From Bacteroidales bacterium (GTDB lineage Bacteria > Bacteroidota > Bacteroidia > Bacteroidales > UBA932), in assembly GCA_017548445.1 (NCBI GenBank), contig JAFYZZ010000066.1, positions 1 through 18,883 on the forward strand: a stretch of 18,883 nt of DNA, read 5' to 3'. Numbering within the stretch: the stretch's first letter is position 1; each line of letters begins with the position of its first letter. Positions 1 to 18,883 of this stretch are shown in pieces. Below the pieces are notes generated by a model, which saw only the letters and a program-made list of their open reading frames with translations, was not told the DNA's origin and searched no databases. The translations under genes and the position numbers were made by a program.

Positions 1-1076
1 AACAGTTTCTCTCCCTGCAGGTTGATCGCAATCCTATCGCCTTCTATCTCTTTCACGGGAGCCAGCGCCAGCGGGCAACTGCCTCCTGAAACGTCCTTCG
101 GACCCCACCGCTGCGCTTCGCTTGCGGTCCCCCCTCTTACTGTGCCGAGGGTGGCAGGGTTTTCTAAGGCAGTTGCCGCTGACGCTGCTGCAGAATTGGA
201 CACAGGAACGGCGACTTTATGCAGCAGGCGCTTCAGGGAAGGCATTTCGTAGAGGTCGAGGAGCGCGAGGATGCCGGGGGTTTCGGCGGTGTCGTAGACG
301 AGCTGCTCCGCCGTCACGTCCAGCGGAATGTCCGTCTTGATGGTCACCAGCTCGCGCGACAGGCCGATGTGACCCTGCGCCGCGTGGAACTGCTCCTGCT
401 GCCGGGCCGTCAGCTCGTCCAGGTGGGCGTAGATGCCGTCCACAGAGCCGTATTTGCCCAGCAGTTTCGCGGCGCCCACCGGCCCCACGCCCTGCACGCC
501 CGGCACGTTGTCCGAAGCGTCGCCGCAGATCGCGAGGATGTCGATGACCTGCGCGGGCGAGGCGATCTTCCACTTCTCGCATATTTCAGCCACGCCCAGC
601 AGCTCGTTCTCTCCCCCGCCCTTGCCCGGCTTGATTTGCAGCACCCGCGGCGTCACCAGCTGGCCGTAATCCTTGTCCGGGGTGACCATAAACACCTCGA
701 AGCCCTCGGCCTCGAAGCGCCGGGCGGCCGAGCCGATCACGTCGTCGGCCTCGTAGCCCGGGATCATCAGCACCGGGATGTCCAGCGCCTCCACGATGCG
801 CGTCAGGGGCTCCAGCGCATCGATGACCAGCTGCGGCGTATCGCCGCGATTGGCCTTGTACTCGGGATAGAGCTCGTTGCGGAACGTGCCCCCGGGCGGG
901 TCGAAACTCACCGCGATATGCGTAGGATGTTCCCTGTCGATGAGCTCGAGCAGGTATTTGGTGAATCCGAACAGGATGGACGTATCCACGCCCTTGGAGT
1001 TGACCATCGGCCGTCCGAGGAAGGCATAGTACATCTTGAAGACGAGCGCGTGGCCGTCGATGAGGAAAAGTTTCAT
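1..1076 (-). CDS. polA: DNA polymerase I, N-terminal part (5' nuclease domain and start of the exonuclease domain), cut by the window edge
   Basis: The first 358 residues are visible. Pol I fills gaps and removes RNA primers during lagging-strand synthesis and repair. Residues 1-290 are the 5'-nuclease (flap endonuclease) domain: FLIDG with Asp7, the PEYKANR helical-arch motif (71-77), GYEADDV with Asp111/Asp112, TPDKDYGQL (132-140) and the helix-hairpin-helix GDASDNVPG (185-193). Residues from about 340 (VKEIEGDRIAINL) look like the first strand of the 3'-5' exonuclease-like domain. Residues about 297-338 are an Ala/Gly/Ser-rich linker encoded by an inverted-repeat element described separately. 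The ATG at 1076 is chosen because the protein begins directly with the conserved MKLFLIDG strand and a promoter -7 box ends 4 nt upstream. The catalytic polymerase domain lies outside the window. Identification is firm; completeness of the gene cannot be judged. Confidence 0.96.
   Translation of the reverse strand, partial: MKLFLIDGHALVFKMYYAFLGRPMVNSKGVDTSILFGFTKYLLELIDREHPTHIAVSFDPPGGTFRNELYPEYKANRGDTPQLVIDALEPLTRIVEALDIPVLMIPGYEADDVIGSAARRFEAEGFEVFMVTPDKDYGQLVTPRVLQIKPGKGGGENELLGVAEICEKWKIASPAQVIDILAICGDASDNVPGVQGVGPVGAAKLLGKYGSVDGIYAHLDELTARQQEQFHAAQGHIGLSRELVTIKTDIPLDVTAEQLVYDTAETPGILALLDLYEMPSLKRLLHKVAVPVSNSAAASAATALENPATLGTVRGGTASEAQRWGPKDVSGGSCPLALAPVKEIEGDRIAINLQGEKL
63..187. repeat. 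Terminal-inverted-repeat element lying in frame inside polA
   Basis: The left arm (63-84) and right arm (167-187) are inverted copies of each other. Fourteen base pairs match around the core AACTGCCT/AGGCAGTT, and about 20 pairs match overall with one mismatch and one extra base. Between the arms is a smaller inverted repeat, ACCGC at 107-111 with GCGGT at 124-128, flanked by GGACC (100-104) and GGTCC (126-130). The element encodes about polA residues 297-338, exactly the linker between the nuclease and exonuclease domains, and leaves the frame open. This resembles a miniature inverted-repeat or REP-like element tolerated in a linker. It has no transposase. No second copy was seen in this window. 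Confidence 0.6.
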
Positions 1077-1080
1077 ACGG

Positions 1081-1112
1081 CAAAGATGAAACTTTTTCGC
1101 GAAAGTTTCAAG
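1081..1112 (-). promoter_or_regulatory. Probable polA promoter
   Basis: On the minus strand, CTTG (1112-1109) is followed after exactly 20 nt by CATCTTTG (1088-1081). This matches the Bacteroidetes pattern TTTG-N20-TAnnTTTG with one mismatch in each box. The -7 box ends only 4 nt before the polA ATG, so the transcript should start at or next to the start codon. An 8-bp inverted repeat (GAAACTTT 1088-1095, AAAGTTTC 1102-1109) fills the spacer. Confidence 0.6.
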
Positions 1113-1227
1113 TTCATTTTTTATTCATCGAGTTTCAATCCTGGCTCATCCGCAAATATTTTATCGCAATAGTCATTTTTCAAAAGTCTTTAATCCGTTT
1201 ATGAAAGAAACGCGCACGCGTATCAAT

Positions 1228-1235
1228 TATTTTTG
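1228..1235 (+). promoter_or_regulatory. Candidate -7 box for susC1
   Basis: TATTTTTG fits TAnnTTTG and lies 53 nt upstream of the susC1 ATG, leaving an AT-rich leader of roughly 50 nt like those of the other two susC genes. There is no good TTTG at the usual 19-21 nt upstream, so the call is weaker than for susC2 and susC3. Confidence 0.4.
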
Positions 1236-1288
1236 TGGCGTTCTGAATGAGATCAATACCAATCCATATTAATCTAAAACTAAAAGTA

Positions 1289-4200
1289 ATGTTCAAACAT
1301 CTGATGAAAGTGTCGGGTATCCTGATGATATTCCTCACTTTGGCAGGATCCTTCCAGGCTCTTGCCCAGAACCGCACCATCAGCGGCAAGGTCGTCGATG
1401 CTTCCGGGCAGCCGGTCATCGGCGCCGCCGTCACGGTGGTCGGCAATTCGCGTATCGGTGCAGCCACCGACCTGGACGGTAACTTCTCGCTGAGCGTCCC
1501 CGCGGGATCCAGCATCTCCGTCGAGAGCATCGGCTACACGGCGCAGACCTTCGCCGTCGGCAACCAGAGCGTCTTCAACATCGTCCTCGAGGAGGATACC
1601 GAGATGCTCGAAGAGACCGTGGTCATCGGTTACGGCGTCCAGAAGAAGAGCGACCTCACCGGCTCCGTGGCCTCCGTCCGCGATACCGAGCTCCAGAACC
1701 GCTCCACTTCCGACGCCGCCGCCGCCCTCCAGGGCAAGGCTGCCGGCGTGCAGATCTTCAACGACTCCGGTGCTCCGGGTGAAGGCGCATCCATCCGCGT
1801 CCGCGGTATTTCCTCCAACTCCGGCTCCGGCCTCGGCCCGCTCCTCATCGTGGACGGCCTGAAGGTGGACAACATCAACTACCTCGACCCTTCGATGATC
1901 GAGTCGATGGAGGTCCTGAAGGACGCCGCCTCCGCCGCCATCTACGGTGCGCAGGCCGGTAACGGCGTCGTGCTCATCACCACCAAGAACGGCGCGAAGA
2001 ACAAATCCAAGGATGGCAACATTTTCTACAACTACAAGCTTACGCTGAGCCAGTTGGGCCACCACGCCCAGGTTATGAACGCCCAGCAGTATATCGACTG
2101 GCAGCAGCAGGCCGGCCAGCTCCCCTCCGTCGATGAGATCATCAAGACCGGCGTGTGGGACGGCGTGACCGACACCAACTGGGCCGACGTCCTTTACGGG
2201 ACCGGCGTCACCCACAGCCACACCATCGGCGCGCAGGGCGGTAACGACCGCGGCTCCTATTTCCTCTCCCTCAACTACCTGGATGAAGACGGTATGGCCC
2301 GCGGAAACACGGATACCTACAAGCGTTTCACCACCCAGATCAACGCCGACTACAAGATCAAGTCCTGGTTCACCGTCGGCACCAACACTTCCATCGAGTT
2401 CCGCCAGCAGCAGAAGATCGGCGAGCACTCCGAGTACGCCGGCAGCAGCGCAGGCCTTCTCGGCACCCTCATCATCGACCCGCTCACGCCCGTCTATTTC
2501 ACGTCCTACGACGAGTTGCCCCTGGGTATGAAGGACGCCCTCGCCAAGGGAGTGAAGGTCTACGGACCCGAAGACCACCCCGGCTGGTACTATGCCGTTT
2601 CCAAGATCCTCGAAGGTGACGGCGTCAACCCGCTCATCTACCGCGACCGCAACCAGAAGAAGGAAGAAGGCTGGCAGGTCCGCGGTACGGTATTCGCCAA
2701 CATCACCCCGTTCAAGGGCCTCGTGTTCACTTCCCGTCTGGGCTACCGCATCAAACAGTCGTACAACAGCGACTTCACGGAACCCTACCACGCGAACGCC
2801 AAGAACTATGCGACGACGTACAGCATCAGCGCCACCTCTTCGCAGAGCTACTACTATCAGTGGGAGAACTTCGCCAACTACAACGTCACCCTCGGAGGCA
2901 AGCACGACCTCGGCGCGATGGCCGGTATGTCCTATACCTACAACGACAGCCGCAGCGTAGGCGCCAGCCTCACCGGCGAGGATCCTCTCAAGGGATATGC
3001 CGAGAACTTCCGCTACCTCAGCCAGGACAACGGCTCCGGCACCAAGGGCATCAGCGGCGGCACCCCCAGCCAGAGCACCCAGATCTCCTACTTCGGCCGT
3101 CTGACCTATACCTACGACAACCGCTACAGCCTCCAGACGAACTTCCGCGCCGACGCCTTCGACTCCTCCAAGCTCTCCCCGAAGAACCGCTGGGGCTACT
3201 TCCCCTCCGTCTCCGCCGGCTGGACCGTCAGCAACGAGCGCTTCATCAAGGACAACATCAGCCGCGACATCCTCAGCTTCCTGAAGTTCCGCGGATCCTG
3301 GGGTATCAACGGTAACATCGCCGTTCTCTCCGGTTATCCTTATTCCACCTCCATCTCCTACAACAGCCAGAGCTATCAGTTCAATGAGGACAACTCCCTC
3401 ACCCTGGGTTCCCAGCCTGACGGCCTCGCCAATCCGAACCTTACCTGGGAGACCTCCGTGCAGACGGACTTCGGTATGGACCTGCGTATGTTCAACAACC
3501 GCCTCACCTTCGGCGTGGACTGGTACAACAAGGACACCCGCGACCTGCTGGTCAGGATTTCCCCTGTGGCTGAGGTCGGTGTCAGCTCCCAGACCGTGAA
3601 CGCCGGCGCCGTGAACAACACCGGTTGGGAATTCGAACTCGGATGGCAGGACAACATCGGCGATTTCCACTACAGCATCAACGGCAACCTGTCCACCCTC
3701 AAGAACCGCGTGACCTACCTCGAGCCTACCGTGGGACACCAGAAAGGCGACAGTTTCGGCAATATGAAGTTCTCCACCTGGTTTGAGGAAGGATATCCGG
3801 TGTGGTTCTTCCGCGGCTACCAGTATGCCGGCATCGGCGAGGACGGAAAGGCCAACTACTATGCCGCCGACGGTTCCATCACCCAGTCTCCGGTGGACGC
3901 CGATATGGGCTATATGGGCAGCGCCCTCCCGCCCCTCACCTTCGGTCTCACCCTGCATATGGACTGGAAGGGACTCGACTTCACCCTGTTCGGATCCGGC
4001 GCCGCCGGGCACCAGCTGATGCCTTGCGTGTACCGCGTGGACCATATGAACATCAACGCCCTCACCTATTTCTATGAGGAGTGCGGCAAGTCGCTCCCCA
4101 AGATCGAGAACATCTGGAACAGCAAGGAGTTCTGGAGCTCTTCCGCCGTCGTCTTCAAGGGCGACTACTTCAAGATCAAGCAGATCCAGCTCGGCTACAC

Positions 4201-4402
4201 CCTGCCGAAGCAGTGGCTCAGGAAGATCTTCGTCGACAACCTGCGCGTCTACGCTTCAATGGACGACTGGTTCGTGTTCACCAAGTATCCGGGATTCGAC
4301 CCGGAGACCGCTTCCACCGGCTCCACTTCCGGTATGGGTCTGGACAAGGGTTCTTACCCGAATGCCAAGAAATTGATGTTTGGTGTAAATATCTCCTTCT
4401 AA
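1289..4402 (+). CDS. SusC/RagA-family TonB-dependent outer-membrane transporter (SusC1)
   Basis: This 1037-residue beta-barrel imports a ligand delivered by its SusD partner, powered by TonB-ExbBD. A signal peptide spans about 1-26 (ALA-Q cleavage), followed by a carboxypeptidase-regulatory-like domain (about 28-102; ISGKVVDASGQPVIGAAVTV), a TonB-box-like EETVVIGYG (109-116), a plug with VRGISS and LLIVDG (about 120-240), and the barrel ending in FGVNISF, with the C-terminal Phe used for barrel assembly. There is no STN domain, so no direct anti-sigma signalling is expected. The start at 1289 is preferred over an in-frame ATG at 1247 because MFKHLMK opens the signal peptide and matches SusC2. 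The partner gene susD1 starts 12 nt downstream. It is a close paralogue of SusC2. Unlike SusC2 and SusC3, it lacks the DxNGDG-type loop near residues 856-878. The ligand is unknown. Confidence 0.96.
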   Translation: MFKHLMKVSGILMIFLTLAGSFQALAQNRTISGKVVDASGQPVIGAAVTVVGNSRIGAATDLDGNFSLSVPAGSSISVESIGYTAQTFAVGNQSVFNIVLEEDTEMLEETVVIGYGVQKKSDLTGSVASVRDTELQNRSTSDAAAALQGKAAGVQIFNDSGAPGEGASIRVRGISSNSGSGLGPLLIVDGLKVDNINYLDPSMIESMEVLKDAASAAIYGAQAGNGVVLITTKNGAKNKSKDGNIFYNYKLTLSQLGHHAQVMNAQQYIDWQQQAGQLPSVDEIIKTGVWDGVTDTNWADVLYGTGVTHSHTIGAQGGNDRGSYFLSLNYLDEDGMARGNTDTYKRFTTQINADYKIKSWFTVGTNTSIEFRQQQKIGEHSEYAGSSAGLLGTLIIDPLTPVYFTSYDELPLGMKDALAKGVKVYGPEDHPGWYYAVSKILEGDGVNPLIYRDRNQKKEEGWQVRGTVFANITPFKGLVFTSRLGYRIKQSYNSDFTEPYHANAKNYATTYSISATSSQSYYYQWENFANYNVTLGGKHDLGAMAGMSYTYNDSRSVGASLTGEDPLKGYAENFRYLSQDNGSGTKGISGGTPSQSTQISYFGRLTYTYDNRYSLQTNFRADAFDSSKLSPKNRWGYFPSVSAGWTVSNERFIKDNISRDILSFLKFRGSWGINGNIAVLSGYPYSTSISYNSQSYQFNEDNSLTLGSQPDGLANPNLTWETSVQTDFGMDLRMFNNRLTFGVDWYNKDTRDLLVRISPVAEVGVSSQTVNAGAVNNTGWEFELGWQDNIGDFHYSINGNLSTLKNRVTYLEPTVGHQKGDSFGNMKFSTWFEEGYPVWFFRGYQYAGIGEDGKANYYAADGSITQSPVDADMGYMGSALPPLTFGLTLHMDWKGLDFTLFGSGAAGHQLMPCVYRVDHMNINALTYFYEECGKSLPKIENIWNSKEFWSSSAVVFKGDYFKIKQIQLGYTLPKQWLRKIFVDNLRVYASMDDWFVFTKYPGFDPETASTGSTSGMGLDKGSYPNAKKLMFGVNISF

Positions 4403-4414: not shown

Positions 4415-6226
4415 ATGAAAAAGTATATCATTTTGGGATTATCCGTTGCACTGGCCGTGTTCTCCACCACCTCGTGCAACCCGGACCTTCTGGATATCCA
4501 GCAGAAAGGCGTCATCGCCTACGAGGATTTCTACCAGACCGACGAGGATGCCCAGTCGGCCCTCGTGGCAGCTTATTCCTCGTTTATCAAACTGATCAAT
4601 GACCAGGGTAGCAACAACCCGGCCTGGAACGTGGTCGTGAACGCCTGCGGCGACGAACTGTACTGGGGCGGCGGCAAGAAGGACGGCAGCTCCTCCGGCG
4701 CCCAGGATATGAACGAGTTCCGCAACACCTACGACAGCACCGTTCCTCACATCCGGGTCGTGTACAAAGATCTGTATTCCCTGATCTACAAGTGCAACCT
4801 GGTCATCGACAATTTCTATGGCGAGAGCGGGGAACTCTGCGACTCGCAGGTGAAGAAGCAGTGCGTGGCCGAGGCCCGCGCGATCCGCGCCTGGGCGCAC
4901 TTCACTGCGGCCACCTTCTGGGGCACCCCGCCCCTGGTGGAGCACGTGCTCTCCGGCGACGCCCGGCCGACCAACTGCGACCACCAGGTCCTGATGGACT
5001 GGTGCATCGCCGAGTTCAAGGCCGCCATTCCCGACCTTACGCCCCGCAACGGAAAGAACGACAAGGCGGGAGCCTACAGGATGACCAAGGGCGCCGCCCA
5101 GGCCTTCCTGGGCAAGGCGCAGGTCTTCAACAAGGACTGGGAAGGCGCCAAGGCTTCCCTCAAGGAGGTCATCAACTCCGGCAACTACGCCCTGGCCCCC
5201 ACCGAGGACCTCTGGAACCTCTTCCACGTGGTCTGCGACGGCAACGAGGAGAAGGTACTCGAGATGAATTATATGTATAACGAGGGTGTCGGCAGAGGGG
5301 ACTGGAAATACCACTTCCAGCGCAACCAGGCCCTGTTCCTCCGCAACATCAAGAAGTACCCTTCGGTGCTCCTCCAGGCCGGTGACGGCTGGGGCAACAA
5401 CGTCTCCCCCACCAAGCCGTTTATGGATGCCATTATGGCGCACGAGCCCAATTCTGCACGCCGCAAGGCCTGGTTCGTCTCCTACGAGGAGTTCCTCACC
5501 GACTTCTCCTACCCGCTGGAGGCATCCGAGGAAAAGGTCCCCGACAGCGAAGGCAACAAGGTAAAGGTTTCCTACAAGGCCGACGCCGATATGACCACGG
5601 AAGAGAAACTGATGGACTACCGCCGCGGCCTGAACTGCGAGAAGTATGACGAGACTTACGCCAACTACGGCTATTACTTCTTCAAGCTCCTCCCCTGGCA
5701 GTCGGATCTTATCCCGAACAACGCCACCGTCACCGAGGAGAACCGCATCATTATGCGTTACGCCGAGGTCCTGCTGCTCTACGCCGAGGCCTGCGCGATG
5801 ACGAACGACAACGACGGCCTGAAGTACCTCAATATGGTGGCCGAGCGCGCGGGCGCACCCACGTACGACGCCCTCACGATGGACAACGTCAAGCAGGAGA
5901 AATGGTTCGAACTGTCCTGGGAAGGCGTCCGCTTCTGGGATCTGGTCCGCTGGGGCGACGCCCCCAAGGCACTGGCGTTCAAGAGCCACGACGAGACGCC
6001 TTATCTCGGTGATGAATTCTATGTGTCCGGCTCCAAAGGCAAGAAGACGACCGGTCAGCCGCACAAGGCACGCATCCACTTTATTGATGACGGATGGGCG
6101 GCCAAGGGCGGCGGCTACAAGCAGGGCAAGCACGAACTCCTTCCTTTCCCGTACGATGTGATCATCATCAACGAGTGGAACGAAGAGACCGGCGAGGGTC
6201 TGAAACAGAATCCCGGCTGGGACTAA
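4415..6226 (+). CDS. SusD/RagB-family surface lipoprotein (SusD1)
   Basis: The 603-residue partner of SusC1 caps the barrel at the cell surface and binds the nutrient. The N-terminus is a lipoprotein signal ending in a lipobox, FSTTSC, with Cys21 the lipidated residue, followed by NPDLLDIQQKG, the usual SusD opening. The tetratricopeptide-like SusD fold follows (for example CNLVIDNFYG and CVAEARAIRAWAHF). The C-terminal signature KWFELSWEGVRFWDLVRWG is at 496-514, and the protein ends in LKQNPGWD, typical of the family. It begins 12 nt after susC1 with no Shine-Dalgarno sequence, so the two are co-transcribed, and a strong terminator follows 20 nt after the stop. It is similar to SusD2 through most of its length (both keep IPQKG/IQQKG, CNLVI and GNYxL). 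It carries a Gly-rich WGGGKKDGSS stretch absent from SusD2. The substrate cannot be inferred. Confidence 0.95.
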   Translation: MKKYIILGLSVALAVFSTTSCNPDLLDIQQKGVIAYEDFYQTDEDAQSALVAAYSSFIKLINDQGSNNPAWNVVVNACGDELYWGGGKKDGSSSGAQDMNEFRNTYDSTVPHIRVVYKDLYSLIYKCNLVIDNFYGESGELCDSQVKKQCVAEARAIRAWAHFTAATFWGTPPLVEHVLSGDARPTNCDHQVLMDWCIAEFKAAIPDLTPRNGKNDKAGAYRMTKGAAQAFLGKAQVFNKDWEGAKASLKEVINSGNYALAPTEDLWNLFHVVCDGNEEKVLEMNYMYNEGVGRGDWKYHFQRNQALFLRNIKKYPSVLLQAGDGWGNNVSPTKPFMDAIMAHEPNSARRKAWFVSYEEFLTDFSYPLEASEEKVPDSEGNKVKVSYKADADMTTEEKLMDYRRGLNCEKYDETYANYGYYFFKLLPWQSDLIPNNATVTEENRIIMRYAEVLLLYAEACAMTNDNDGLKYLNMVAERAGAPTYDALTMDNVKQEKWFELSWEGVRFWDLVRWGDAPKALAFKSHDETPYLGDEFYVSGSKGKKTTGQPHKARIHFIDDGWAAKGGGYKQGKHELLPFPYDVIIINEWNEETGEGLKQNPGWD

Positions 6227-6460: not shown

Positions 6461-9400
6461 ATGTTCAAACATCTGATCAAAGCGACGGGTATCCTGATGA
6501 TCCTCCTCGCTTCGCTGGGCTCCCTCCCGGTGCTCGCTCAGAACCGAACCATCAGCGGCCGCGTGGTCGATGCTTCCGGGGAACCGGTCATCGGCGCCGC
6601 CGTCACGGTGGTCGGCAACACCAGGATCGGTGCAGCCACCGACCTGAACGGTGCCTTCACGCTGAACGTTCCTGCCGGAGCCAACATCTCCGTCGAGAGC
6701 ATCGGCTACAAGACCCAGACTTTCGCCATCGGCAACCAGTCCAACTTCAGCATCGTCCTCGAAGAGGACACCGAGATGCTGGAAGAGACCGTGGTTATCG
6801 GTTATGGCGTACAGAGGAAGAGCGACCTTTCCGGCGCCGTGGCTTCCGTCCGTGAAGCCGACCTCAAGAACCGTTCCACCGTCGACGCCGCCGCCGCCCT
6901 CCAGGGCAAGGTTTCCGGTGTCCACGTCCTTACGAACGGTGCTCCGGGTGAGGGCGCTTCCATCCGCGTCCGTGGTTATTCCTCCAACGGCGGCAGCCTC
7001 TCCCCTCTGTACATCGTCGACGGTCTGCAGGTCAGCAGCATCCAGTACATCGACCCTTCGATGATCGAGTCCATCGAGGTTCTGAAGGACGCCGCCTCCG
7101 CCGCCATCTACGGCGCCCAGGCTGGTAACGGTGTCGTCCTCGTGACCACCAAGACCGGTTCCGAGAGCAAGGCCACCGTGACCTACACCGGCAAGGCCAC
7201 CCTCCAGAACTTCCACAAGCGTCCTATGATGAACCGCGACGAACTGACCGAATACCTCGGCTACGAGTATGGCGCGGACTGGGTGAAGTCGCAGGTGAAC
7301 GCTTACGACTACAAGCACCCGATGTACGAGAACGGCATCATCGATACCGACTGGCTTACCGCATACTTCGAGCCCACCTGGAGCCAGCAGCACGGCATCA
7401 GCTTCTCCGGCGGTAACCGCAACGGCCACTTCTTCACCGCCATCAACTATGTTTACGACGACGGTGTCGTGAAGGGAAAGAAGGACGTTTACAAGCGTCT
7501 CACCGCCCAGGTCAACGCTGACTACAACCTCTTCAAGTGGCTGCAGGTCGGTGTGAACAGCTCCATCGAAAAATGGAACACCCAGAGCGTCTCCCAGCGT
7601 GGCTACGGCTCCTCCTTCGAGTCCGTCCTCCTGATGGACCCTCTGACCCCTGTCTACTGGACCACCCCCGAGGAGATGTCCCTCTCCTTCAAGACCGTCT
7701 ACGACGCTCTGCAGAACGGAACCTCCGACATCAACTACCGCCTGTTCCGCGACGAGAACGGCTGGTATGCCAACACCAAGTATTCCGATATGGAAGGTAG
7801 CGCCCTCGCAAAGCGCGACGCCACCGACAGCGACAACGGCGGTTTCAACATCAACGGAACCTTCTTCGCCAACTTGATGCCCATCAAGGGCCTGACCATC
7901 ACGTCCCGCCTCGGCTACCGGCTCAACTTCGGCGTCAGCCACAGCTACAGCTCTCCTTACTGGATCGGCGACCGCGGCTCGCAGAAGACCTACTCCATCT
8001 CGGCCAACGCCTCCACCGGCTGGTACTATCAGTGGGAGAACTTCGCCAACTACCTGTTCAGCATCGGCAAGAACAACTTCACCGTGATGGCCGGTATGTC
8101 CTATCGCGAGACCAACAGCGACAGCGTGAACGCAAGCTCCAGCGGCGAGGACATCCTCTCCAGCTACGAGCCCAACTTCCGCTACCTCTCCTACGTGCTT
8201 TCCGGCGCGCCTAAGAGCATCAGCAACTCCCCGGGCAAGAGCGCTTCCCTCGCCTACTTCGGACGTCTCATCTGGAACTACGACAACCGCTACCAGATCC
8301 AGGCCAACTTCCGCGCCGACGCGTTCGACTCGTCCAAGCTGCCTGCCAACAACCGCTGGGGCTACTTCCCGTCCGTGTCCGCTTACTGGACCATCAGCAA
8401 CGAGCAGTTCTTCAAGGACAACGTGAACACCAGCGTGTTCAACTTCCTCAAGCTCCGCGCCTCCTGGGGCCGCAACGGTAACATCAGCGTGTTGAGCGGC
8501 TATCCTTACACGGCTACCATCTCCATCGGTTCCAGCTCCTATCAGTACGACGTCGACAACATCGGCAACTCCTACGGTTCCGCCCCGAGCAAGCTCCCGA
8601 ACCCGAATCTCCGCTGGGAGACCTCCGAGCAGCTTGACTTCGGTCTCGACGCCCGCCTGTTCAACAACCGCCTGACCTTCACCGCCGACTACTTCAACAA
8701 GCAGACGAAGGACCTCCTCTTCAGCGTCACCATCCCGTCCGAGCTCGGTTTCTCCTCCGTGACCACCAACGGCGGTAACGTGCTGAACACCGGTTGGGAG
8801 TTCGAACTCGGCTGGAGGGACCACATCGGTGACCTCAACTACAGCATCAGCGGCAACTTCTCCACCCTGCACAACGAGGTTCTTTCCCTCGCCGAGGGTT
8901 CCACTCCTTCCAGAAGGACCGACGCCAGCTCCTCCAACTACCCGGTCGAGACCATCTTCGACGTAGGCTACCCGATCTGGTACCTGAACGGTTATGTCTT
9001 TGAAGGCATCGCCGCCGACGGCTCCGCCAAGCTCAAGGACGTCAACGGTGACGGCGAGACCAGCTCCGCCGATATGACCTTCCTCGGCCAGACCACTCCG
9101 AAGTACACCTTCGGTCTGAACGTCAACCTCGAGTACAAGGGCTTCGACTTCGCCCTGTACGGCTCCGGTGTCGCCGGCAACGTCCTGATGCCGATCTTCC
9201 ACCGTACCGGCTTCAAGAACAACCTGAAGTACTACCTTGACGCCTACAAGAACGGAGACTATCCGAACCCTGAAAAGACCGTCGGTTACTATCCTTTCTG
9301 GTCTTCGAGCGCCAATGTGTTCAAGGGCGACTACTTCCGCATCAAGCAGATGCAGTTCGGTTACACCCTCCCGAGCAGGATCACGAAGAAGGCCGCCATC

Positions 9401-9568: not shown

Positions 9569-9583
9569 TCAATGATTTGCACA

Positions 9584-11386: not shown

Positions 11387-11430
11387 GGAAACTTATTCGT
11401 CATACATACGAATAGTTTTGATTCGTGTAC

Positions 11431-11462
11431 GGGAGGCGCCGCGATGGCGCCTCCCTTTTTTT
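11431..11462 (+). terminator. Intrinsic terminator after susD2
   Basis: A perfect 10-bp GC-rich stem, GGGAGGCGCC (11431-11440) with GGCGCCTCCC (11446-11455), encloses the loop GCGAT and is followed by seven T. It ends the second SusC/SusD unit just before the hydrolase promoter. Confidence 0.92.
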
Positions 11463-11486
11463 GTTGCCGCAAAAAGCTTATCTTCG
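11456..11486 (+). promoter_or_regulatory. Possible promoter of the alpha/beta hydrolase gene
   Basis: TATCTTCG (11479-11486) differs from TAnnTTTG at one position. TTTT (11456-11459) sits 19 nt upstream, inside the T-tract of the preceding terminator. The -7 box ends 4 nt before the ATG at 11491, the same tight placement seen at polA. The match is moderate. Confidence 0.45.
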
Positions 11487-11490
11487 CATT

Positions 11491-12399
11491 ATGATGAAAC
11501 CGATGACCCTTCCCGCATCCGCCGACGGCCTGGACCTGGCGATGCTTGTCAGCGTCCCGGAGGGGACGCCCCGCGGCGTAGTGCAGCTCGTTCACGGAAT
11601 GTGCGAGCACAAGGAGCGCTACATACCTTTGATGGAATTCCTGACGGAGCACGGCTACGTGTGCGTCATCCACGACCATCGCGGACACGGTGCTTCCGTA
11701 AAGAGTCCTGAAGACCTCGGTTTCTTCTACGACGGCGGCTGGCAGGCCCTCGTGGAGGACATCCGCGTGGTCTGTGACTGGGCCCGGGCGCAGTGGCCGG
11801 GGCTGGACTATACGCTTTTCGGGCACAGTATGGGCTCTTTGGCCGTACGTTCGTTCGCCAAGCGTTACGACGACCGGCTGGACCGCCTGTTCGTGTGCGG
11901 CTGCCCCTCCGACAACCCTGCCAAGGGCGCCGGCAAGGCGCTGGCGGGCTTTTTCGGCAAGGTCCGCGGCTGGCATTACCGGCCCAAGCTCCTGCAGCAG
12001 ATGTCCTTCGGCGCCTACAACAAGCCTTTCGAGGCGGAGGGCTGGCCCGCAGCCTGGGTCTGCTCGAACCCGGACACGCTGAAGGCCTACCACGCCGACC
12101 CGCTGTGCCAGTATGTTTTCACGGCCAGCGGTTTCTACGGCCTGCTGGGGATGATGGGCGACTGCTACGACCCGAAGGGCTGGAAGGTGGCGCATCCGGA
12201 GATGCCGGTGCATTTCATCTCCGGCGCCGAGGATCCCTGCCGCGTCTCCGACCAGGCGCTGGAAAAGGCTGCGGAACTGATGCGCAAGGTGGGCTACCGC
12301 CACGTGGACTTGAAGCTCTACCCCGGGATGCGCCACGAGATCCTGAACGAAACGGACCGCCTGACGGTCTGGAACGACATCCTGACGCAATTGGGATAA
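11491..12399 (+). CDS. Alpha/beta hydrolase of the monoacylglycerol lipase / lysophospholipase-like group
   Basis: This 302-residue serine hydrolase probably cleaves an ester bond in a lipid or other small ester. The order of motifs is that of the Hydrolase_4 family: oxyanion strand VQLVHGMCEH (31-40), HDHRGHGAS (61-69), nucleophile elbow GHSMGS with Ser113, an acid loop SGAEDPC with Asp248, and a GMRHEILNE loop with His282. The catalytic triad is therefore complete. There is no signal peptide, so it should act in the cytoplasm. The ATG at 11491 (or the adjacent one at 11494) is chosen because an upstream in-frame ATG at 11425 would put the terminator hairpin inside the coding region and add a non-homologous leader. 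It is flanked by SusC/SusD operons but separated from both by terminators, so a role in their pathways is only a guess. The exact substrate is unknown. Confidence 0.9.
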   Translation: MMKPMTLPASADGLDLAMLVSVPEGTPRGVVQLVHGMCEHKERYIPLMEFLTEHGYVCVIHDHRGHGASVKSPEDLGFFYDGGWQALVEDIRVVCDWARAQWPGLDYTLFGHSMGSLAVRSFAKRYDDRLDRLFVCGCPSDNPAKGAGKALAGFFGKVRGWHYRPKLLQQMSFGAYNKPFEAEGWPAAWVCSNPDTLKAYHADPLCQYVFTASGFYGLLGMMGDCYDPKGWKVAHPEMPVHFISGAEDPCRVSDQALEKAAELMRKVGYRHVDLKLYPGMRHEILNETDRLTVWNDILTQLG

Positions 12400-12457: not shown

Positions 12458-14200
12458 CTACTTGAACTTGTACGGCAAGTCGCCCTTGGCCCAGTTGGTG
12501 CCGTCGCCCCAGCCGGGATTCTGCTCCAGCACCTCCTCGGACAGGGTCACCTGGTCCTCAGGGATCTTGAAGAAACCGCCCTTGGTGTCGTTGTAACGCT
12601 GCATAAAGTCGACGGTGAAGGCATACTCGCCCGGAATACCCTGGTTGGTAATCTTGTTGCCGACCTGGTTCTTCACCTTCTCCTGCACGTCGCCCCAGCG
12701 GCGAAGGTCGTTCCAGCGGATCGCCTCGAAGCAGAGCTCGTAGCGGCGCTCCTTCTTCAGCGCATTCAGGCTGTAGGTCACGTCGGGCAGACCGGCACGG
12801 GCGCGGACGGCGTTCAGGCCGCTCTTGCCATTATAGACGGCGGCGCCGTCGGTCAGCTCGGAGTGCATCAGCAGCACGTCGGCGAAACGCAGCCACACGA
12901 GCGACTGGGTCAGACCGGTCTGGCGGTTGTTCTCGCTGCCGTAGAAGTAGCCGTAGCTGAGCATACGCTGGCCGGTCTCCGGGTCATAGGCCTCGCAACC
13001 GATGTACTTCTTGGCTAGCAGGTTGGTATTCTCCACCTCCTTGGCAGGGTCGCCCTTATACTCGGGAATCTCGACGGCGCGGTCGCAGATGGAACCCACG
13101 CGGCGGTAGTCGCCGGCATAGTCCGGATCCTCGGCCCAGTCGGTCCAGAGCTTCTCGCAGACGGGGCCGTTGGAATAGCCCTGCACGGAGAACGGGAACG
13201 CGGCGGCCGTCGTCTTGCGGAGGCCGTAGAACTCCACGATACGGTTGTGACGCAACTGGGCGTCGGCGCTCCAACCGGCCTTGTTGGACATCTTCACGGC
13301 GAACATATTCTCGATGTTCTCGTCGGTGGCCCAGTTCAGGTTGTTGTCCTGGTCGTACTTGTAGTCCTTGGCCGTGTAAGGATTGGTATAAGGCCAGAGG
13401 TTGCGCTGGTCGTCCACCAAGCCATAGCCGCTGTTCCTGATACAGTCCTCGAGCCAGGCGGCCACCTGCGACTTCGAGATGGAGCCGCCCTCTGCAAGCG
13501 GGAGCTCGCTCTTGCCGTAGAAACCGGTGTAGAACAGCCACACGCGGGCCATCATACCCTCGGCCGTCCATTTGGAAGCGCGGCCGTCGCCGAATTGGGG
13601 ATACGGCTGGGACGGGCCCAGTTCGATGGCCTGCTTGAGGTCGGAAGCAATCTGGGCGTACACCTCGTCCGGGGTGTTGCGCGGCAGGTTCACGGGCTCG
13701 GTCGAGAGCACGAGAGGCACGCCGTTGAACACCTGGGCCAGGTTGAAATAATAGAAAGCACGCAGGAAGTAGATCTCGCAAAGGAGCTGGTTCTTCTTGT
13801 TGGAGGAGCTCCACTCCGTCACGTTGTCGATGGTCTCGAGCGCGCTGTTGGCGCGGTTGATTCCCTTGTAACGGTTGGACCAGCACGGATTCATCCAGTT
13901 GGTATAGGCGTTCAGCAGGCGGTCGACGCCCTGGGCGCCGATGTTGCTCTGGCTGCCGCCGCCCAGACGGTCGTCGGAAGCGATGTCGAAGATGAAGAAC
14001 GGATCCTCTTCCGGATCGGCCAGGTTGCGGTTCATCACGGAGTAGATGCCGTTCACCATCTGGATGGCGTCCGTCTCGTTGACCGGGAAGTTGGAGGTAT
14101 CCTTCTTGGTAAGGTTCTGCGTGTCGAGGAAGTCGTCGCAACCCCCGAGCATCAGCAGGCACACCGCCGTCGCAATGAGATATATAATATTCTTTTTCAT
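12458..14200 (-). CDS. SusD/RagB-family surface lipoprotein (SusD3)
   Basis: The partner of SusC3 has 580 residues from the ATG at 14200. An ATG two codons upstream (14206, adding MI) is an alternative. The lipobox LMLGGC gives lipidated Cys21, followed by DDFLDTQNLTKKD. The signature KKERRYELCFEAIRWNDLRRWGD sits at about 480-504, and the C-terminus has LEQNPGWGDG plus a short extension. Sequence is clearly more distant from SusD1 and SusD2 than those are from each other: EAIRWNDLRRWG replaces EGxRFxDLVRW. It starts 12 nt after the susC3 stop and shares its transcript. Its ligand probably differs from those of the first two pairs, but no enzyme nearby tells which it is. Confidence 0.95.
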   Translation of the reverse strand: MKKNIIYLIATAVCLLMLGGCDDFLDTQNLTKKDTSNFPVNETDAIQMVNGIYSVMNRNLADPEEDPFFIFDIASDDRLGGGSQSNIGAQGVDRLLNAYTNWMNPCWSNRYKGINRANSALETIDNVTEWSSSNKKNQLLCEIYFLRAFYYFNLAQVFNGVPLVLSTEPVNLPRNTPDEVYAQIASDLKQAIELGPSQPYPQFGDGRASKWTAEGMMARVWLFYTGFYGKSELPLAEGGSISKSQVAAWLEDCIRNSGYGLVDDQRNLWPYTNPYTAKDYKYDQDNNLNWATDENIENMFAVKMSNKAGWSADAQLRHNRIVEFYGLRKTTAAAFPFSVQGYSNGPVCEKLWTDWAEDPDYAGDYRRVGSICDRAVEIPEYKGDPAKEVENTNLLAKKYIGCEAYDPETGQRMLSYGYFYGSENNRQTGLTQSLVWLRFADVLLMHSELTDGAAVYNGKSGLNAVRARAGLPDVTYSLNALKKERRYELCFEAIRWNDLRRWGDVQEKVKNQVGNKITNQGIPGEYAFTVDFMQRYNDTKGGFFKIPEDQVTLSEEVLEQNPGWGDGTNWAKGDLPYKFK

Positions 14201-14212
14201 AATCATCGGGGA

Positions 14213-17200
14213 TTAAAAGATGATGTTCAGACCGATCTGCCAGGAGCGGGCGGACGGGTAATAACCGTTGTCGATGCCGGACGCCCAGCTGGTGTCGTTG
14301 CCGAAGCCGACCTCGGGATCCATTCCGGTGTAGCCCGTGAAGGTGAACATATTGGTCGCGGTCACATACAGGCGGCACCTGGTCACAGGGAGGAATTTCG
14401 CGATCCGCTTGACGTCATAGCCGAGCGAGATGGTGGAAATCTTGAAGTAGTCGGCATCTTCGAGCCACACGCGGGAAAGCTCGGACATATTGACGTGCTT
14501 GCCGTGGGTGAAGCGCGGATAGTGATTGGTGCTGCCCTCGCCGGTCCAGTACTTGGTGTACACGTCGGTGCAGTAGTTGTCGTCCGGGTGGTCGGAGAAC
14601 TGACGATAGCTCTTCGCGACCTGCTGGCCGAAGGCTCCGTAGCCGTTGAGGCTGAAATCTATCCCCTTCCATTCGAGGTTGATGCTCAGACCCACGTTGT
14701 AGTCCGGGTTCGGGTCGCCGATCATCGTCTTGTCCTTCTCGTCGATCTTCTGGTCGCCGTTCTTGTCAACGAACATCACGTCGCCGGGCTGGATGTCCCC
14801 GCCCTGGAAGGACTTGGAGGCCTCGCCGCCGAAGTATTTGTTAAGATACTCCTGCTTCTGCTGCTCGTTCTGGATGATACCGTCCATCTCGTAGCCCCAG
14901 AAATAACCGATCGGATAGCCGACCTGCACGCGGTAGAGCTCGGCCGTGTTCTGCGCGATGGCATTGGATCCGCCGTGGATGATACCCTCGGAGTTCGCGA
15001 TACGGGTCACGAGGTTGCTGTTATGCGAGAAGGTGGCGGAAATGCCATAGGAGAAATCGCTGTTGACGGAGTCGTTCCAGGAGAGGAGGAACTCATAACC
15101 GCGGTTGCGGATGTCTCCACCGTTCACGTACGGGGCGTTGGTACCGTAGGAAAGGAGCACGGGGGCCCGGACGAGCCAGTCCTTGGTCATCTTGTTGTAC
15201 CAGTCGAAGGAGATGCCCAGACGGCTGCGCAGGAAACGGGCATCGAAGCCGAAGTCGAGCTGCTCGGAGGTCTCCCATTTCACGTCCTTGTTGGGGAGGA
15301 TGTCGGGATAGGCGCCGATGCCGGGATTGTCCTTGCTGTCGAAGTAATACGGATCGTCAAAGGCGATGGTGGCCAGGTACTGGAAGCTGGAGATGTTGCA
15401 GTTGCCGTTCTGGCCCCAGCTGCCGCGGAGCTTGAAGAAGCTCAGCCAGTCCTTGCTGAATTCCATAAACGGCTCGTTGCTCACCACCCAGCCGGCGGAC
15501 ACGGAGGGGAAGATACCCCAGCGGTTGCCGCGGGCGAAGTTGGAGGAACCGTCTGCGCGAAGCACCGCGGAGAACAGGTAGGTCTCGTTGTAGTTGTAGT
15601 TCACGCGCCCGAAGAAGGAAGACAGGGCTCCCTGGCTGTTCGGGCTGCCGCTGATGCTGGTATAGGCCGGATCCACCACGTTCGCATTGGTGATGTAGGC
15701 GTGGTCGAAGGAGCCCGGGAACAGGGAATTGGAGTTGGACGCGCCCACGCTGCTGCCATAGCCCCATTTCTCCAGGGACTGGCCCACGAGGATGTCCAGG
15801 TTGTGGTTGCCGAAGGACTTCACCCAGTTCACGGTGTTCTCCCAGGACCAGCGTATGCTGTAGGACTGGCTCTGGCTGACGTCGTCGTTGGGGTTGGAGG
15901 TCTTGGTGCTCAGCTCATACACGGGCACGTAGCTGCGGCTCTCGCTGTGGTTGTACAGCCAGCCGAAGCTGGAGCGGAAAGTGAGGCCCTTGATGGGGAC
16001 GAACTCCAGGAAGAAGTTGGTCTGCAGGCGGTTGCCCTTGGTATAGCGGCTATTGCGGGTGTAATCCAGCTGGGCGAGCGGGTTGGCCATCTCGGCGCTG
16101 AAATCCCAGTTGTCCGCCACGATATCCTTGTATTCATACCAGCCGCCTTCGTCGTTGCGGGCGGGCAGGAGCGGGGACATCGTCAGGAGCGTACGGATAT
16201 TGTTGCTGTAGATACCGCCGATCTGGACACCCTTCTTGAAGGTGTTGGTGAAGGTGATGTTCTCGCCGAACTTGAGGATGTCGCGGTTGTTCTTCCGGAT
16301 CAGGGAATAGTCGGAATTCAGGCGGACGGTCATACGGTCATACTGCGGGGTGGCGGGATAACCGAGCGTACCGGTCTGGGAGAATTTGCTGAAACCGAGG
16401 GAGAAACGGGAAACGTCGCTGCCGCCGAGGATGTTGATGGAGGCGTTGCTGACCGGGGCGTTGTGCACCGTAGTCTCCTCCAGCCAGTTGGTGCCGTTCC
16501 AGGTACCGGCCTGGATCTGAGAATACTGCTTGGGGATCAGGCTGGCCCAGTCGTACGTGACCTGGTTGGCCGTCTGGTAGGCCTTGTCGTTGATCTCCAT
16601 ATACTGCTTGGCGTTCAGCGGGGTGACCCCGTTGGTATTGGGGTTCTGCCAGCCCAGATAACCGTCGAAGGTCACCTGGACCTTGCCGGCCTTGCCTTTC
16701 TTGGTGGTCACGAGGATGACGCCGTTGGATGCCCGGGCGCCGTAGATGGCGCTGGAGGCGGCATCCTTCAGGACGTCGATGGATTCGATGTCGTTCGGCG
16801 AGAGGGCCGTGATGGAACCGCCCGGCACGCCGTCGATGACGTAGAGCGGGGTATTGGAACCGGCGGTACCCATACCGCGGATCGTCACCTTGTAGCTCTC
16901 GCCCGGCTGACCGGAGTTCTGCACGATGTTCACGCCGGCCGCCTGGCTCTGGAGGGCGCCGAAGGCGTCGACGGCGTGGGTGGAAGCGAGCTTGTCGCCG
17001 GATACGCTGACCGTCGAACCGGTCACGAGTTTCTTGCGCTGCACGCCGTAACCGACCACGACCGTCTCTTCAAGCATTTCCGCATCATCCTGAAGAGTGA
17101 TGATCATATTGTCGGCGGCGGAAACGCGCCGCGTGTCGTAGCCGATGCAGGAAACTTCCAGCACCGTCCCGGGAGCGACCTGAAGGCTGAAGTTTCCGTC

Positions 17201-17383
17201 CAGGTCGGTAGTGGCTCCGTTGGTGGTGCCGGGCACGAGGACGGCTGCGCCGATGATGGCCTCGCCGTTCGCGTCGACAACCTTGCCAAAGATGCTCCGA
17301 TTCTGGGCGAAAGCCTCAAGGCCTCCCCACAAAGTGAAGAGTATCGCCAGGATACCCGTCACTCTCATCAGTTGTTTTGACAT
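14213..17383 (-). CDS. SusC/RagA-family TonB-dependent outer-membrane transporter (SusC3)
   Basis: This 1056-residue importer pairs with SusD3. The signal peptide spans about 1-26 (AFA-Q), followed by a carboxypeptidase-regulatory-like domain (IFGKVVDANGEAIIGAAVLV), a TonB-box-like EETVVVGYG (105-113), and a plug with VTIRGMGT and LYVIDGVPGG. Next comes DVLKDAASSAIYGARASNGVILVTTKKGK, the most conserved plug stretch of the family. The barrel ends IGLNIIF. A loop DKNGDQKIDEKD (873-884) matches the Ca-binding-like loop of SusC2. There is no STN domain. It belongs to a different SusC branch from SusC1 and SusC2: the N-terminal domain and the barrel share only family-level motifs with them. A consensus promoter lies 68 nt upstream, back to back with that of tadA. 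Confidence 0.96.
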   Translation of the reverse strand: MSKQLMRVTGILAILFTLWGGLEAFAQNRSIFGKVVDANGEAIIGAAVLVPGTTNGATTDLDGNFSLQVAPGTVLEVSCIGYDTRRVSAADNMIITLQDDAEMLEETVVVGYGVQRKKLVTGSTVSVSGDKLASTHAVDAFGALQSQAAGVNIVQNSGQPGESYKVTIRGMGTAGSNTPLYVIDGVPGGSITALSPNDIESIDVLKDAASSAIYGARASNGVILVTTKKGKAGKVQVTFDGYLGWQNPNTNGVTPLNAKQYMEINDKAYQTANQVTYDWASLIPKQYSQIQAGTWNGTNWLEETTVHNAPVSNASINILGGSDVSRFSLGFSKFSQTGTLGYPATPQYDRMTVRLNSDYSLIRKNNRDILKFGENITFTNTFKKGVQIGGIYSNNIRTLLTMSPLLPARNDEGGWYEYKDIVADNWDFSAEMANPLAQLDYTRNSRYTKGNRLQTNFFLEFVPIKGLTFRSSFGWLYNHSESRSYVPVYELSTKTSNPNDDVSQSQSYSIRWSWENTVNWVKSFGNHNLDILVGQSLEKWGYGSSVGASNSNSLFPGSFDHAYITNANVVDPAYTSISGSPNSQGALSSFFGRVNYNYNETYLFSAVLRADGSSNFARGNRWGIFPSVSAGWVVSNEPFMEFSKDWLSFFKLRGSWGQNGNCNISSFQYLATIAFDDPYYFDSKDNPGIGAYPDILPNKDVKWETSEQLDFGFDARFLRSRLGISFDWYNKMTKDWLVRAPVLLSYGTNAPYVNGGDIRNRGYEFLLSWNDSVNSDFSYGISATFSHNSNLVTRIANSEGIIHGGSNAIAQNTAELYRVQVGYPIGYFWGYEMDGIIQNEQQKQEYLNKYFGGEASKSFQGGDIQPGDVMFVDKNGDQKIDEKDKTMIGDPNPDYNVGLSINLEWKGIDFSLNGYGAFGQQVAKSYRQFSDHPDDNYCTDVYTKYWTGEGSTNHYPRFTHGKHVNMSELSRVWLEDADYFKISTISLGYDVKRIAKFLPVTRCRLYVTATNMFTFTGYTGMDPEVGFGNDTSWASGIDNGYYPSARSWQIGLNIIF

Positions 17384-17450
17384 GATTAATGAGTTGATTG
17401 AATATAAAATGGGTAATGGGTAATACAGGTTACTAAGCTTTAATCTTTCT

Positions 17451-17513: not shown

Positions 17514-17948
17514 ATGGAAATGGACGAGAAATATATGCAGGAGGCCCTGCGCGAGGCACGCGCTGCCGGCGCCGAGGACGAAGTACCCATCGGCGCCGTG
17601 GTGGTGTGTCGCGGGCGTATCATCGCACGCGGGCACAATATGACCGAGCGGCTGCACGATCCCACCGCCCACGCCGAAATGATCGCGCTGACGGCCGCCA
17701 CGGAGGCCCTGGGCGGCAAATACCTCGACGCCTGCACGCTTTACGTGACGGTGGAGCCCTGCCCGATGTGCGCCGCGGCGCTGGGCTGGGCGCAGCTTGG
17801 CCGCCTGGTCTGGGGCGCGCCCGACCCGCGCCGCGGCTACACCCTCTTCTCCCCCTCCCTGCTGCATCCACGCACCGAAGTGGCCTCCGGCCTGCTCGCC
17901 GACGACTGCGCCGCCCTGGTCAAGGATTATTTCAAAACCAAAAGATAA
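17514..17948 (+). CDS. tadA: tRNA-specific adenosine deaminase
   Basis: This 144-residue enzyme converts adenosine 34 to inosine in the anticodon of tRNA-Arg(ACG), letting one tRNA read CGU, CGC and CGA. The zinc-binding cytidine/deoxycytidylate-deaminase motifs are intact: HAE (His53, with Glu55 the proton shuttle) and PCPMC (Cys83, Cys86). The family hallmarks VPIGAVVV (24-31) and ARGHN (38-42) are also present, and the length is typical for TadA. The start at 17514 is supported by a -7 box 8 nt upstream; an ATG two codons later (17520) is possible. It is followed at once by a promoter and a tRNA gene, so it appears to be monocistronic. A guanine or cytidine deaminase of the same superfamily is less likely given the LYVTVEPCPMCAAAL and C-terminal SPSLLHPRTEV context. 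Confidence 0.93.
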   Translation: MEMDEKYMQEALREARAAGAEDEVPIGAVVVCRGRIIARGHNMTERLHDPTAHAEMIALTAATEALGGKYLDACTLYVTVEPCPMCAAALGWAQLGRLVWGAPDPRRGYTLFSPSLLHPRTEVASGLLADDCAALVKDYFKTKR

Positions 17949-18072: not shown

Positions 18073-18546
18073 TTAACGCTTGCGATTTGAGTAGTTTTCC
18101 GTTTGAGAATGGCAATTTGGGCAAAGCAGCTGAAGATTCTCCACCACGTGATTCCGGTGATTCCCATCTATATGATGGATCTGGAACATCAATTCTTTCC
18201 CGTTCCACTCCCTGATTCCACATATCTCGCAGTGAGCGTCACCTTTTAGCACCCGACGGACATATTCACGTTTCAGATTCATCGTCTTTATTTGTGCGCC
18301 ATAACTGAATATCTCCTCGTCCGACCGATTGACTAGCTGACGTTCATAGTGCCTCCCATTCCTCCCCTTCGCCATCCGGTAATCAAAATGAGAGATATCC
18401 AGACCATATCCATCAATCTTCCCTTTCAATGTTCTATAATTACATCCTATTTTTGGGATACCTAGTTTATCCAAACAATCAAAAACGCAGTTCGCTTCAG
18501 CAACCGCCTTTTCCACCCGAGCTTCAGACCAGTCGTACTTTCTCAT
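18073..18546 (-). CDS. HNH endonuclease, stand-alone
   Basis: This 157-residue protein has an N-terminal helical segment (YDWSEARVEKAVAEANCV...LDKLGIPK...NYRTLKGKI...LDISHF). That segment is the DNA-binding-like module often found in front of HNH domains in homing-type and phage nucleases. The C-terminal HNH domain has two zinc-type pairs, CEIC and CPNC, around the catalytic IHHIDGNHRNHVVENLQLLCPNCHSQ segment, which carries the HH, Asn and His of the motif. The start at 18546 is chosen because a perfect -7 box lies at 18568-18561; the upstream in-frame ATG at 18654 would precede the transcript. Base composition is visibly poorer in GC than in all neighbours, suggesting recent acquisition next to the tRNA. 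No methylase or second subunit is adjacent, so a homing or mobile nuclease is likelier than a restriction enzyme. The target is unknown. Confidence 0.88.
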   Translation of the reverse strand: MRKYDWSEARVEKAVAEANCVFDCLDKLGIPKIGCNYRTLKGKIDGYGLDISHFDYRMAKGRNGRHYERQLVNRSDEEIFSYGAQIKTMNLKREYVRRVLKGDAHCEICGIREWNGKELMFQIHHIDGNHRNHVVENLQLLCPNCHSQTENYSNRKR

Positions 18547-18560
18547 AACACCTCTTTCTT

Positions 18561-18568
18561 CAAAGATA
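18561..18568 (-). promoter_or_regulatory. -7 box of the HNH gene
   Basis: TATCTTTG on the minus strand is a perfect TAnnTTTG match, 14 nt upstream of the ATG at 18546. The expected -33 position has only TTGA (18591-18588, 19 nt spacing), so promoter strength is uncertain. Confidence 0.6.
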
Positions 18569-18593
18569 AGCATTACAAGCAAACCATTCAAGG

Positions 18594-18676
18594 CCGTCCT
18601 CAAAATGAGGCAAAAATGAGGACGGAGAGCGAAATTACTGCTCTCCGTCCTCAAATAAGGGCATTTTTGAGGATGG
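18594..18676. repeat. Cluster of alternating inverted 9-mers
   Basis: CCGTCCTCA occurs at 18594-18602 and 18645-18653; its complement TGAGGACGG occurs at 18617-18625, and one with a single mismatch (TGAGGATGG) at 18668-18676. The copies alternate in orientation, so the middle copy can pair with either neighbour. A further small hairpin, CCTCA-TGAGG, lies at 18598-18610. Confidence 0.6.
18612..18653 (-). terminator. Terminator downstream of glpF
   Basis: On the minus strand, a perfect 14-bp stem (18653-18640 with 18630-18617) encloses a 9-nt loop and is followed by five T (18616-18612). The inner part of the stem is one of several alternating copies of CCGTCCTCA/TGAGGACGG in this interval. 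Confidence 0.8.
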
Positions 18677-18715
18677 CTAGAAGATATAGTTCAGGCCGAG
18701 GTGAAGTGAAGCGAC
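18677..18715 (-). pseudogene. Possible remnant of an outer-membrane protein C-terminus
   Basis: Directly downstream of the glpF stop, in another frame, the minus strand encodes VASLHLGLNYIF followed by TAG. The alternating hydrophobic pattern with a terminal Phe is the C-terminal beta-strand signature of outer-membrane barrels, and it resembles the ends of the SusC proteins here (LGVNITF, IGLNIIF). No start or body is left, and a terminator follows. It could be the tail of a deleted gene, or chance, since only about 12 residues are involved. Confidence 0.35.
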
Positions 18716-18717
18716 AG

Positions 18718-18883
18718 TTAGAACACCAGCAGATAAAGCAGGCCGGCAAGGACTGCGCCGAGCATAGGGCCGGCGACGGGAATCCAGCTGTAGCTCCAGC
18801 CGCTGTCGCGCTTGCCCGCGATGGGCAGCACGGCGTGGGCGCAGCGCGGGCTGAGGTCGCGCGCCGGGTTCAGGGCGTAGCCC
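18718..18883 (-). CDS. glpF: Glycerol uptake facilitator (MIP/aquaglyceroporin), C-terminal end, cut by the window edge
   Basis: The last 54 residues of an inner-membrane channel of the major intrinsic protein family are visible. They open with GYALNPARDLSPR, the second NPA pore motif. The Asp after NPAR is the hallmark of glycerol-conducting GlpF-type channels rather than water-only aquaporins. After a short loop, the final membrane helix is WIPVAGPMLGAVLAGLLYLLVF, ending at TAA (18720-18718). The tail after the helix is very short; this would be normal for a compact Bacteroidetes GlpF but is also compatible with truncation, given the foreign-looking tail that follows. A glycerol kinase or dehydrogenase gene may lie beyond the right edge. 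Confidence 0.88.
   Translation of the reverse strand, partial: GYALNPARDLSPRCAHAVLPIAGKRDSGWSYSWIPVAGPMLGAVLAGLLYLLVF

Follow-up and report, generated by a model that had tools for sequence, protein, structure and literature searches.

The stretch analysed here, contig JAFYZZ010000066.1 of a Bacteroidales bacterium (assembly GCA_017548445.1; the whole 18,883 bases, referred to below as the window), is almost free of the tetramer CATG, and we consider it probable (roughly 0.72) that its lineage was purged of this site by counter-selection from a CATG-recognising restriction system. Exact counting over positions 1..18883 returned the two copies that the original prediction had picked out by eye, at 10249-10252 and 17381-17384, against an expectation of 69.2 with independent bases, 65.8 with a first-order and 61.9 with a second-order Markov model (observed/expected ratio, O/E, 0.03), so that the 65-70 sites first estimated become 62-69 depending on the model, at a GC content of 58.7% that is slightly under the 60% assumed. 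Two hundred dinucleotide shuffles of the window gave a mean of 67.2 CATG (standard deviation 7.7), and the Poisson probability of two or fewer sites when 61.9 are expected is 2.6e-24. Ranking all 256 tetramers in the window by second-order O/E placed CATG at the minimum, followed by CTAG (O/E 0.19; 4 vs 21.6 expected), a tetramer that most relatives are short of as well, whereas AATG, GATG and TATG are as frequent as had been claimed (32, 128 and 62 copies). The window therefore displays the feature by which restriction-site avoidance is recognised, namely one palindrome far below its Markov expectation. The shortage is visible in codon choice: in the open reading frames (ORFs) of the window a C-ending codon precedes methionine once vs 41.9 times expected, T-ending codons do so 32 times vs 14.5 and G-ending codons 46 times vs 22.1, and histidine before a G is encoded by CAC 59 times and by CAT never. 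The codon switching before methionine described earlier is thus real, with TCAATG at 4256-4261 and TTT-ATG and ATT-ATG within 5420-5460 as cited, except that GAT-ATG, AAT-ATG and TAT-ATG (7, 3 and 2 times in the window ORFs) lie outside 5420-5460.

The nearest relatives found keep CATG. As a phylogenetic marker we used the tadA-type tRNA adenosine deaminase gene of the window (17514..17948, plus strand), which matches Bacteroidales assemblies, many of them ruminant-derived and two named Candidatus Cryptobacteroides; among 187 genomes drawn from the genus of locus L008, 173 had a tadA match, the best at 92% identity to the window (G845). Around the same gene, the nine nearest relatives (tadA identity 86-92%; 3.2-3.4 kb each) have CATG at O/E 0.49-1.10. 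In DNA aligned to these nine, the window has none of the 66 CATGs that they carry, against 638 of their 1247 control C..G tetramers, and three of the relatives, each compared with the other eight, retain 18/55, 26/53 and 43/61 CATGs; L008 stands for G013 in this alignment, and sites are shared among the relatives, so the pairs are not independent. Within this set of close relatives, only the lineage of the window is depleted.

Similar depletion recurs elsewhere in the tree. Across 80 tadA loci, CATG O/E was 0.00-0.13 in L072, L003, L026, L042 and L033, 0.17-0.26 in L055, L048 and L001, with the remaining 72 loci at 0.40-1.48. In a tree built from tadA with 57 rows (the window and 56 of the 80 loci, 24 being left out), the nine depleted rows (O/E <0.3) need nine changes, shuffled labels need no more, and well-supported branches force four of the nine; several related lineages appear to have lost CATG separately. 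In 299 genomes drawn from the family, the density of GCATGC, a proxy for CATG that is confounded by GC content and rests on rounded genome sizes, had a median of 139 per Mb, with eight genomes at 10 per Mb or less. Sampled pieces were depleted (O/E 0-0.10) in G303, G213, G195, G197, G027, G182, G232, G230, G175 and G071 and more weakly in G229 (0.22) and G234 (0.26), with G249 doubtful (0.29 on 5 kb); G261, a candidate by its low GCATGC count, was rejected since its CATG O/E was 0.56 on 20 kb. Other palindromes are missing in other relatives, a pattern that a diversity of Type II systems would produce: among loci of at least 10 kb, O/E fell below 0.2 for CATG in 6/65, GATC in 6/65, ACGT in 3/60, AGCT in 3/65 and GGCC in 2/64. 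Loci with GATC, ACGT, AGCT or GGCC at O/E 0.00-0.14 were L026, L002, L046, L079, L004, L011, L012, L060 and L032, and in L072, 11.4 kb of an Alistipes sp. assembly, CATG, ACGT and CGCG all stood at 0.00. An Rfam scan of L144, L146 and L149 gave no matches.

The extent of such depletion along a chromosome could be followed in G133, a relative and not the genome of the window itself, whose assembly consists of two contigs (2.18 and 0.51 Mb), with CATG counted over 1.88 Mb and protein family searches covering the whole. We counted 206 CATG vs 4566 expected (0.045), no other tetramer having a lower ratio, and the site was absent from 278 of 376 five-kb bins. Outside 13 clusters, in which O/E ranges from 0.34 to 1.44, the backbone has 101 sites vs 4394.7 expected (O/E 0.023), and its non-coding part (outside clusters and ORFs of at least 90 amino acids) has 9 vs 143, with TGCA and AGCT ordinary there, so that in G133 the depletion runs across the 1.88 Mb counted, through coding and non-coding DNA. 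That the clusters are recently acquired islands is only partly supported: the genes read in them (a scan of 72 out of 96 ORFs, of which 96 eight straddle piece borders, with 101 families matched and the first 25 of these read) are both of defence type (an MmeI-type IIG enzyme, an ABC-3C component, AbiEii, RhuM) and core (enolase, SecY). The MmeI-type IIG restriction enzyme-methyltransferase is at L145:7040-9778, within a CATG-containing stretch. Codon usage in G133 (codon boundaries written as hyphens, here and below) shows xCC-TG 158 times vs 56.6 expected and TAT-G 622 times vs 625, and histidine before a G-starting codon occurs 282 times vs 394, compared with 716 vs 745 in ordinary loci.

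The routes by which sites disappear were read from 38 aligned segments of depleted and ordinary loci, in which 2 of 125 CATGs were retained vs 799 of 2158 control sites; these differences are unpolarised, as the relatives compared are not ancestors. The 94 single differences at CATG included all 12 kinds of change, and 37 were transversions. Where the reading frame places the site as xxC-ATG (59 sites), we found C>T 21 times, C>G 9, C>A 7, other single differences 4 and G>A 0; for CAT-G (54 sites), G>A 17, T>C 13, G>C 6, C>T 2 and other single differences 6; and for xCA-TG (11 sites), 6 of 7 single differences were at the A. Synonymous escape, transversions and changes at the middle bases point to selection against CATG. 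The use of CAT-A relative to CAC-A was 1.51 in the window, 1.28 in G133, 1.10 in other depleted loci and 0.70 in controls, and this excess, together with the G>A class in CAT-G, leaves room for a mutational share in the loss.

A candidate agent is encoded in the same family. In G303, the contig ends within an ICEA-family HNH nuclease gene, and the fragment left (PF05315, E 6.9e-53) lies directly beside a D12 methyltransferase gene (PF02086, E 1.1e-49, and 1.1e-52 for its counterpart in G620), on a contig piece with 0 CATG vs 36.1 expected. Whole ICEA genes accompanied by two methyltransferases occur in G205, G308 and G620, in the order methyltransferase 1, ICEA, methyltransferase 2 (D12) in the latter two; methyltransferase 1 of the complete operons has 259-265 amino acids, matches PF01555 in two stretches and precedes the nuclease. 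NlaIII itself has one methyltransferase. The operon of G205, whose adenine-type methyltransferase is called a Type II methyltransferase by PADLOC, has an additional protein of ~380 amino acids ahead of the D12 gene, and G001 has both methyltransferases and the ~380-amino-acid protein without ICEA. This protein has a weak EVE match below the cut-off, and its C-terminus looks nuclease-like by our reading only; the restriction-modification operons with such a protein before the second methyltransferase lie at L201:1498-3947 and L181:4713-7661. Carriers of the operon tend to be poor in CATG: a D12 methyltransferase of at least 71% identity is present in 4 of the 299 family genomes, whose GCATGC densities are the 3rd, 19th, 21st and 61st lowest (p=0.002, Mann-Whitney), the three ICEA carriers of the family likewise have low density (p=0.007), and the operon surroundings contain 0 CATG in G303, G308 and G620. 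Judged from membership of the ICEA family and from these CATG-poor carriers, the operon enzymes would recognise CATG here. Sequence databases hold 2017 relatives of ICEA at E <=1e-10 and at least 8000 matches to methyltransferase 2, other D12 enzymes included; searches of solved structures with the ICEA protein, the ~380-amino-acid protein and the D12 methyltransferase gave no matches, and among mobile-element records ICEA found no phage match, no viral contig and one weak plasmid match.

On this basis we propose that, when methylation lags, the nuclease would cut the chromosome of its own host at CATG sites left unmethylated, and mutations that destroy the site would thereby be favoured in coding and non-coding DNA alike; such self-cutting is the presumed selective step, and the genome of the window probably carries, or carried, a system of this kind. 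Long exposure to a CATG-specific restriction system, as the original prediction had suggested, is accordingly the reading that we prefer, given an operon of the ICEA/NlaIII family within the same family of genomes and the scarcity of CATG in carriers of its methyltransferase, even though most other depleted relatives show no such system.

Several results weigh against it. ICEA exceeds the cut-off in just 3/299 genomes of the family and 1/393 of the order, and G303 alone among the eight genomes with the least GCATGC matches ICEA, as it alone matches D12. Methyltransferases are not enriched: N6_N4 matches were found in 9/24 low-GCATGC genomes (that of G133, one of the nine, being an rRNA methyltransferase) vs 15/22 controls, C5 in 7/22 vs 14/22 and N6_Mtase in 10/22 vs 13/22, where the controls had been picked for high GCATGC and had larger assemblies (mean 2.5 vs 1.9 Mb), and where the low group at first included G261 and G209, dropped afterwards, and kept G249, G049 and G208 (the pieces of G049 and G208 being all N). 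No association of depletion with D12, N6_N4, C5 or N6_Mtase emerged. For MT-A70 the search was negative without any control responding, so that this negative carries no weight. In G133, searches for these four families revealed one MmeI-type IIG enzyme only. G205, with a whole operon, still has 4-5 CATG vs 9.7-10.8 expected nearby. Finally, end changes C>T or G>A make up 40/94 differences at CATG vs 193/816 at control tetramers (Fisher p 0.00015), and in the CAT-G frame the amino-acid-changing G>A outnumbers the synonymous T>C. Unbinned elements, turnover within species, recent loss or another CATG system could each explain the missing agent. As a separate observation, C5-methyltransferase matches number eleven in G303, some of which represent parts of the same gene (contigs C34, C50, C76, C46, C49, C90 and C4), the next highest of 44 genomes having 5.

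A special case of the preferred explanation, which we regard as a tentative possibility, is that a CATG system purged the sites and then vanished in the lineage of the window and in most depleted relatives, the depletion being its trace. Such a history would fit the depleted genomes that lack a visible system and the 13 clusters of G133, whose CATG content indicates that the site is tolerated there now, and there is precedent in PMC4687349, where sites were avoided (43.3% of 1930 cases) although the system is present only in different strains of the species, a pattern read there as a vestige of lost systems. It has to contend with the backbone of G133, since by a rough estimate neutral regrowth would bring O/E to 0.023 by ~1% divergence or less, so that nearly all losses would need to be very recent, and single representatives cannot reveal losses. 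It is rather unlikely that most lineages instead host an unrecognised CATG-targeting system that is not of NlaIII type, with protection from outside the families searched. G133, G002, G003 and G004 are without a credible D12, N6_N4, C5 or N6_Mtase candidate, save the IIG enzyme of G133, and UpaP162 of Ureaplasma is described as a CATG nuclease without a recognised endonuclease domain (PMC6191088); against this, G002-G004 are small assemblies (1.5-1.7 Mb) that may be missing defence islands through binning, and G133 was read in part, with its whole assembly covered by the searches for those four methyltransferase families. Less likely again is a CATG-targeting system without a recognisable methyltransferase partner, or without any, where site loss would itself be the self-protection of the host and the few tolerated sites would be many of them clustered.

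A mutational process, the alternative named in the original prediction, would have a modified or targeted C in CATG deaminate to give TATG or CATA. The excess of C>T and G>A, the rank of G>A as the commonest difference in CAT-G (17/54) and the CAT-A excess in depleted sets all agree with it, so that mutation may account for a share of the loss. As the sole cause it is improbable, even more so than the systems just considered, because the routes of loss comprise all 12 kinds of change with 37/94 transversions, G>A (methionine to isoleucine) is absent among the 59 xxC-ATG sites, C>T accounts for 2/54 in CAT-G, the differences in xCA-TG fall mostly at the A, xCC-TG is in excess in G133, and TAT-G is without excess there, the last being a weak test. 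Explanations by chance, by base composition or by some effect at the RNA or codon level that is specific to the window found no support and are refuted: beyond the Poisson probability, the non-coding DNA of G133 is depleted, the window lacks the sites of its relatives in aligned DNA, and the nearest relatives, of similar GC content, are ordinary around the same gene.

Depletion in the window extends over genes of several kinds. Its plus strand encodes a 317-amino-acid ORF without a Pfam or NCBIfam match (219..1172), a SusC/TonB-dependent receptor (1247..4402), a SusD-like protein (4415..6226) and a second SusC (6461..9568), all with 0 CATG, followed by a second SusD-like gene (9572..11386), which holds the copy at 10249..10252, and a serine aminopeptidase S33/alpha-beta hydrolase gene (11425..12399), the DNA of which is ~77-81% identical to that of CATG-ordinary relatives. 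On the minus strand lie a third SusD-like gene (12458..14206; 0 CATG) and a third SusC gene (14213..17383), whose only CATG, at 17381..17384, overlaps its start codon. This SusC/SusD pair (12458-17383) separates the hydrolase gene from tadA, which adjoin each other in the loci of 8/9 close relatives (L008, L332, L333 and L335-L339), and in L339 a piece resembling the minus-strand SusD is found on the other side of the hydrolase. After tadA come tRNA-Gln (17972-18043), an adjoining stand-alone HNH nuclease ORF (18073..18654, minus strand) and, at the end of the window, an aquaporin-like gene piece. The HNH gene is not supported as the depleting agent: its match is to PF01844 and not to the ICEA family, and of the nine relatives only L334 has an alignment that continues through the region, to 18546, such that this CATG-ordinary locus (O/E 1.10) has matching DNA over most of the gene in the same place. 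No methyltransferase or ICEA match was found in the ten window genes scanned (the end piece lying outside the scan), nor did tblastn with the ICEA fragment find a match in the window.

Near-complete removal of a four-base site, along an entire contig in at least one relative and at scattered points of the tree, while sister species keep it, documents clearly how restriction has pressed on the genome of its own host, and the coexistence of depleted and ordinary sister species makes it testable whether self-restriction is the driver, how fast it acts and how long its mark persists after loss of the enzyme. That most depleted genomes show no CATG system suggests that such systems turn over rapidly, lie on unbinned elements or go unrecognised, and CATG counts could flag genomes worth searching.

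Taken together, the depletion is a confirmed, extreme and recurrent case of what resembles restriction-site avoidance, a known effect. The survey of PMC4687349 found the sites of orthodox Type II systems to be scarcer than expected in 47.9% of 1774 site-genome pairs; the likeness is that one short palindrome is scarce, at times where the genome itself lacks the system, and the difference is one of degree, the window standing at O/E 0.03 and the backbone of G133 at 0.02, measured by an index that differs from the Kr used there (threshold 0.78). Compared with NlaIII and with iceA1-hpyIM of PMC2749054, which describes iceA1 as 52% identical to NlaIII, the operons of G303, G308 and G620 similarly pair an HNH nuclease of the ICEA family with a neighbouring D12 adenine methyltransferase, whereas the complete Bacteroidales operons have a second methyltransferase, G205 and G001 also the ~380-amino-acid protein, and the window none of these. 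UpaP162 of Ureaplasma parvum shares with the proposed agent its Type II nature, recognition of CATG and a protecting methyltransferase, and differs in a nuclease reported there to lack homology to studied restriction enzymes (PMC6191088). CTAG is likewise described as often avoided across bacteria (PMC4687349), and its scarcity is present both in the window (0.19) and in most relatives, whereas CATG has been lost lineage by lineage.

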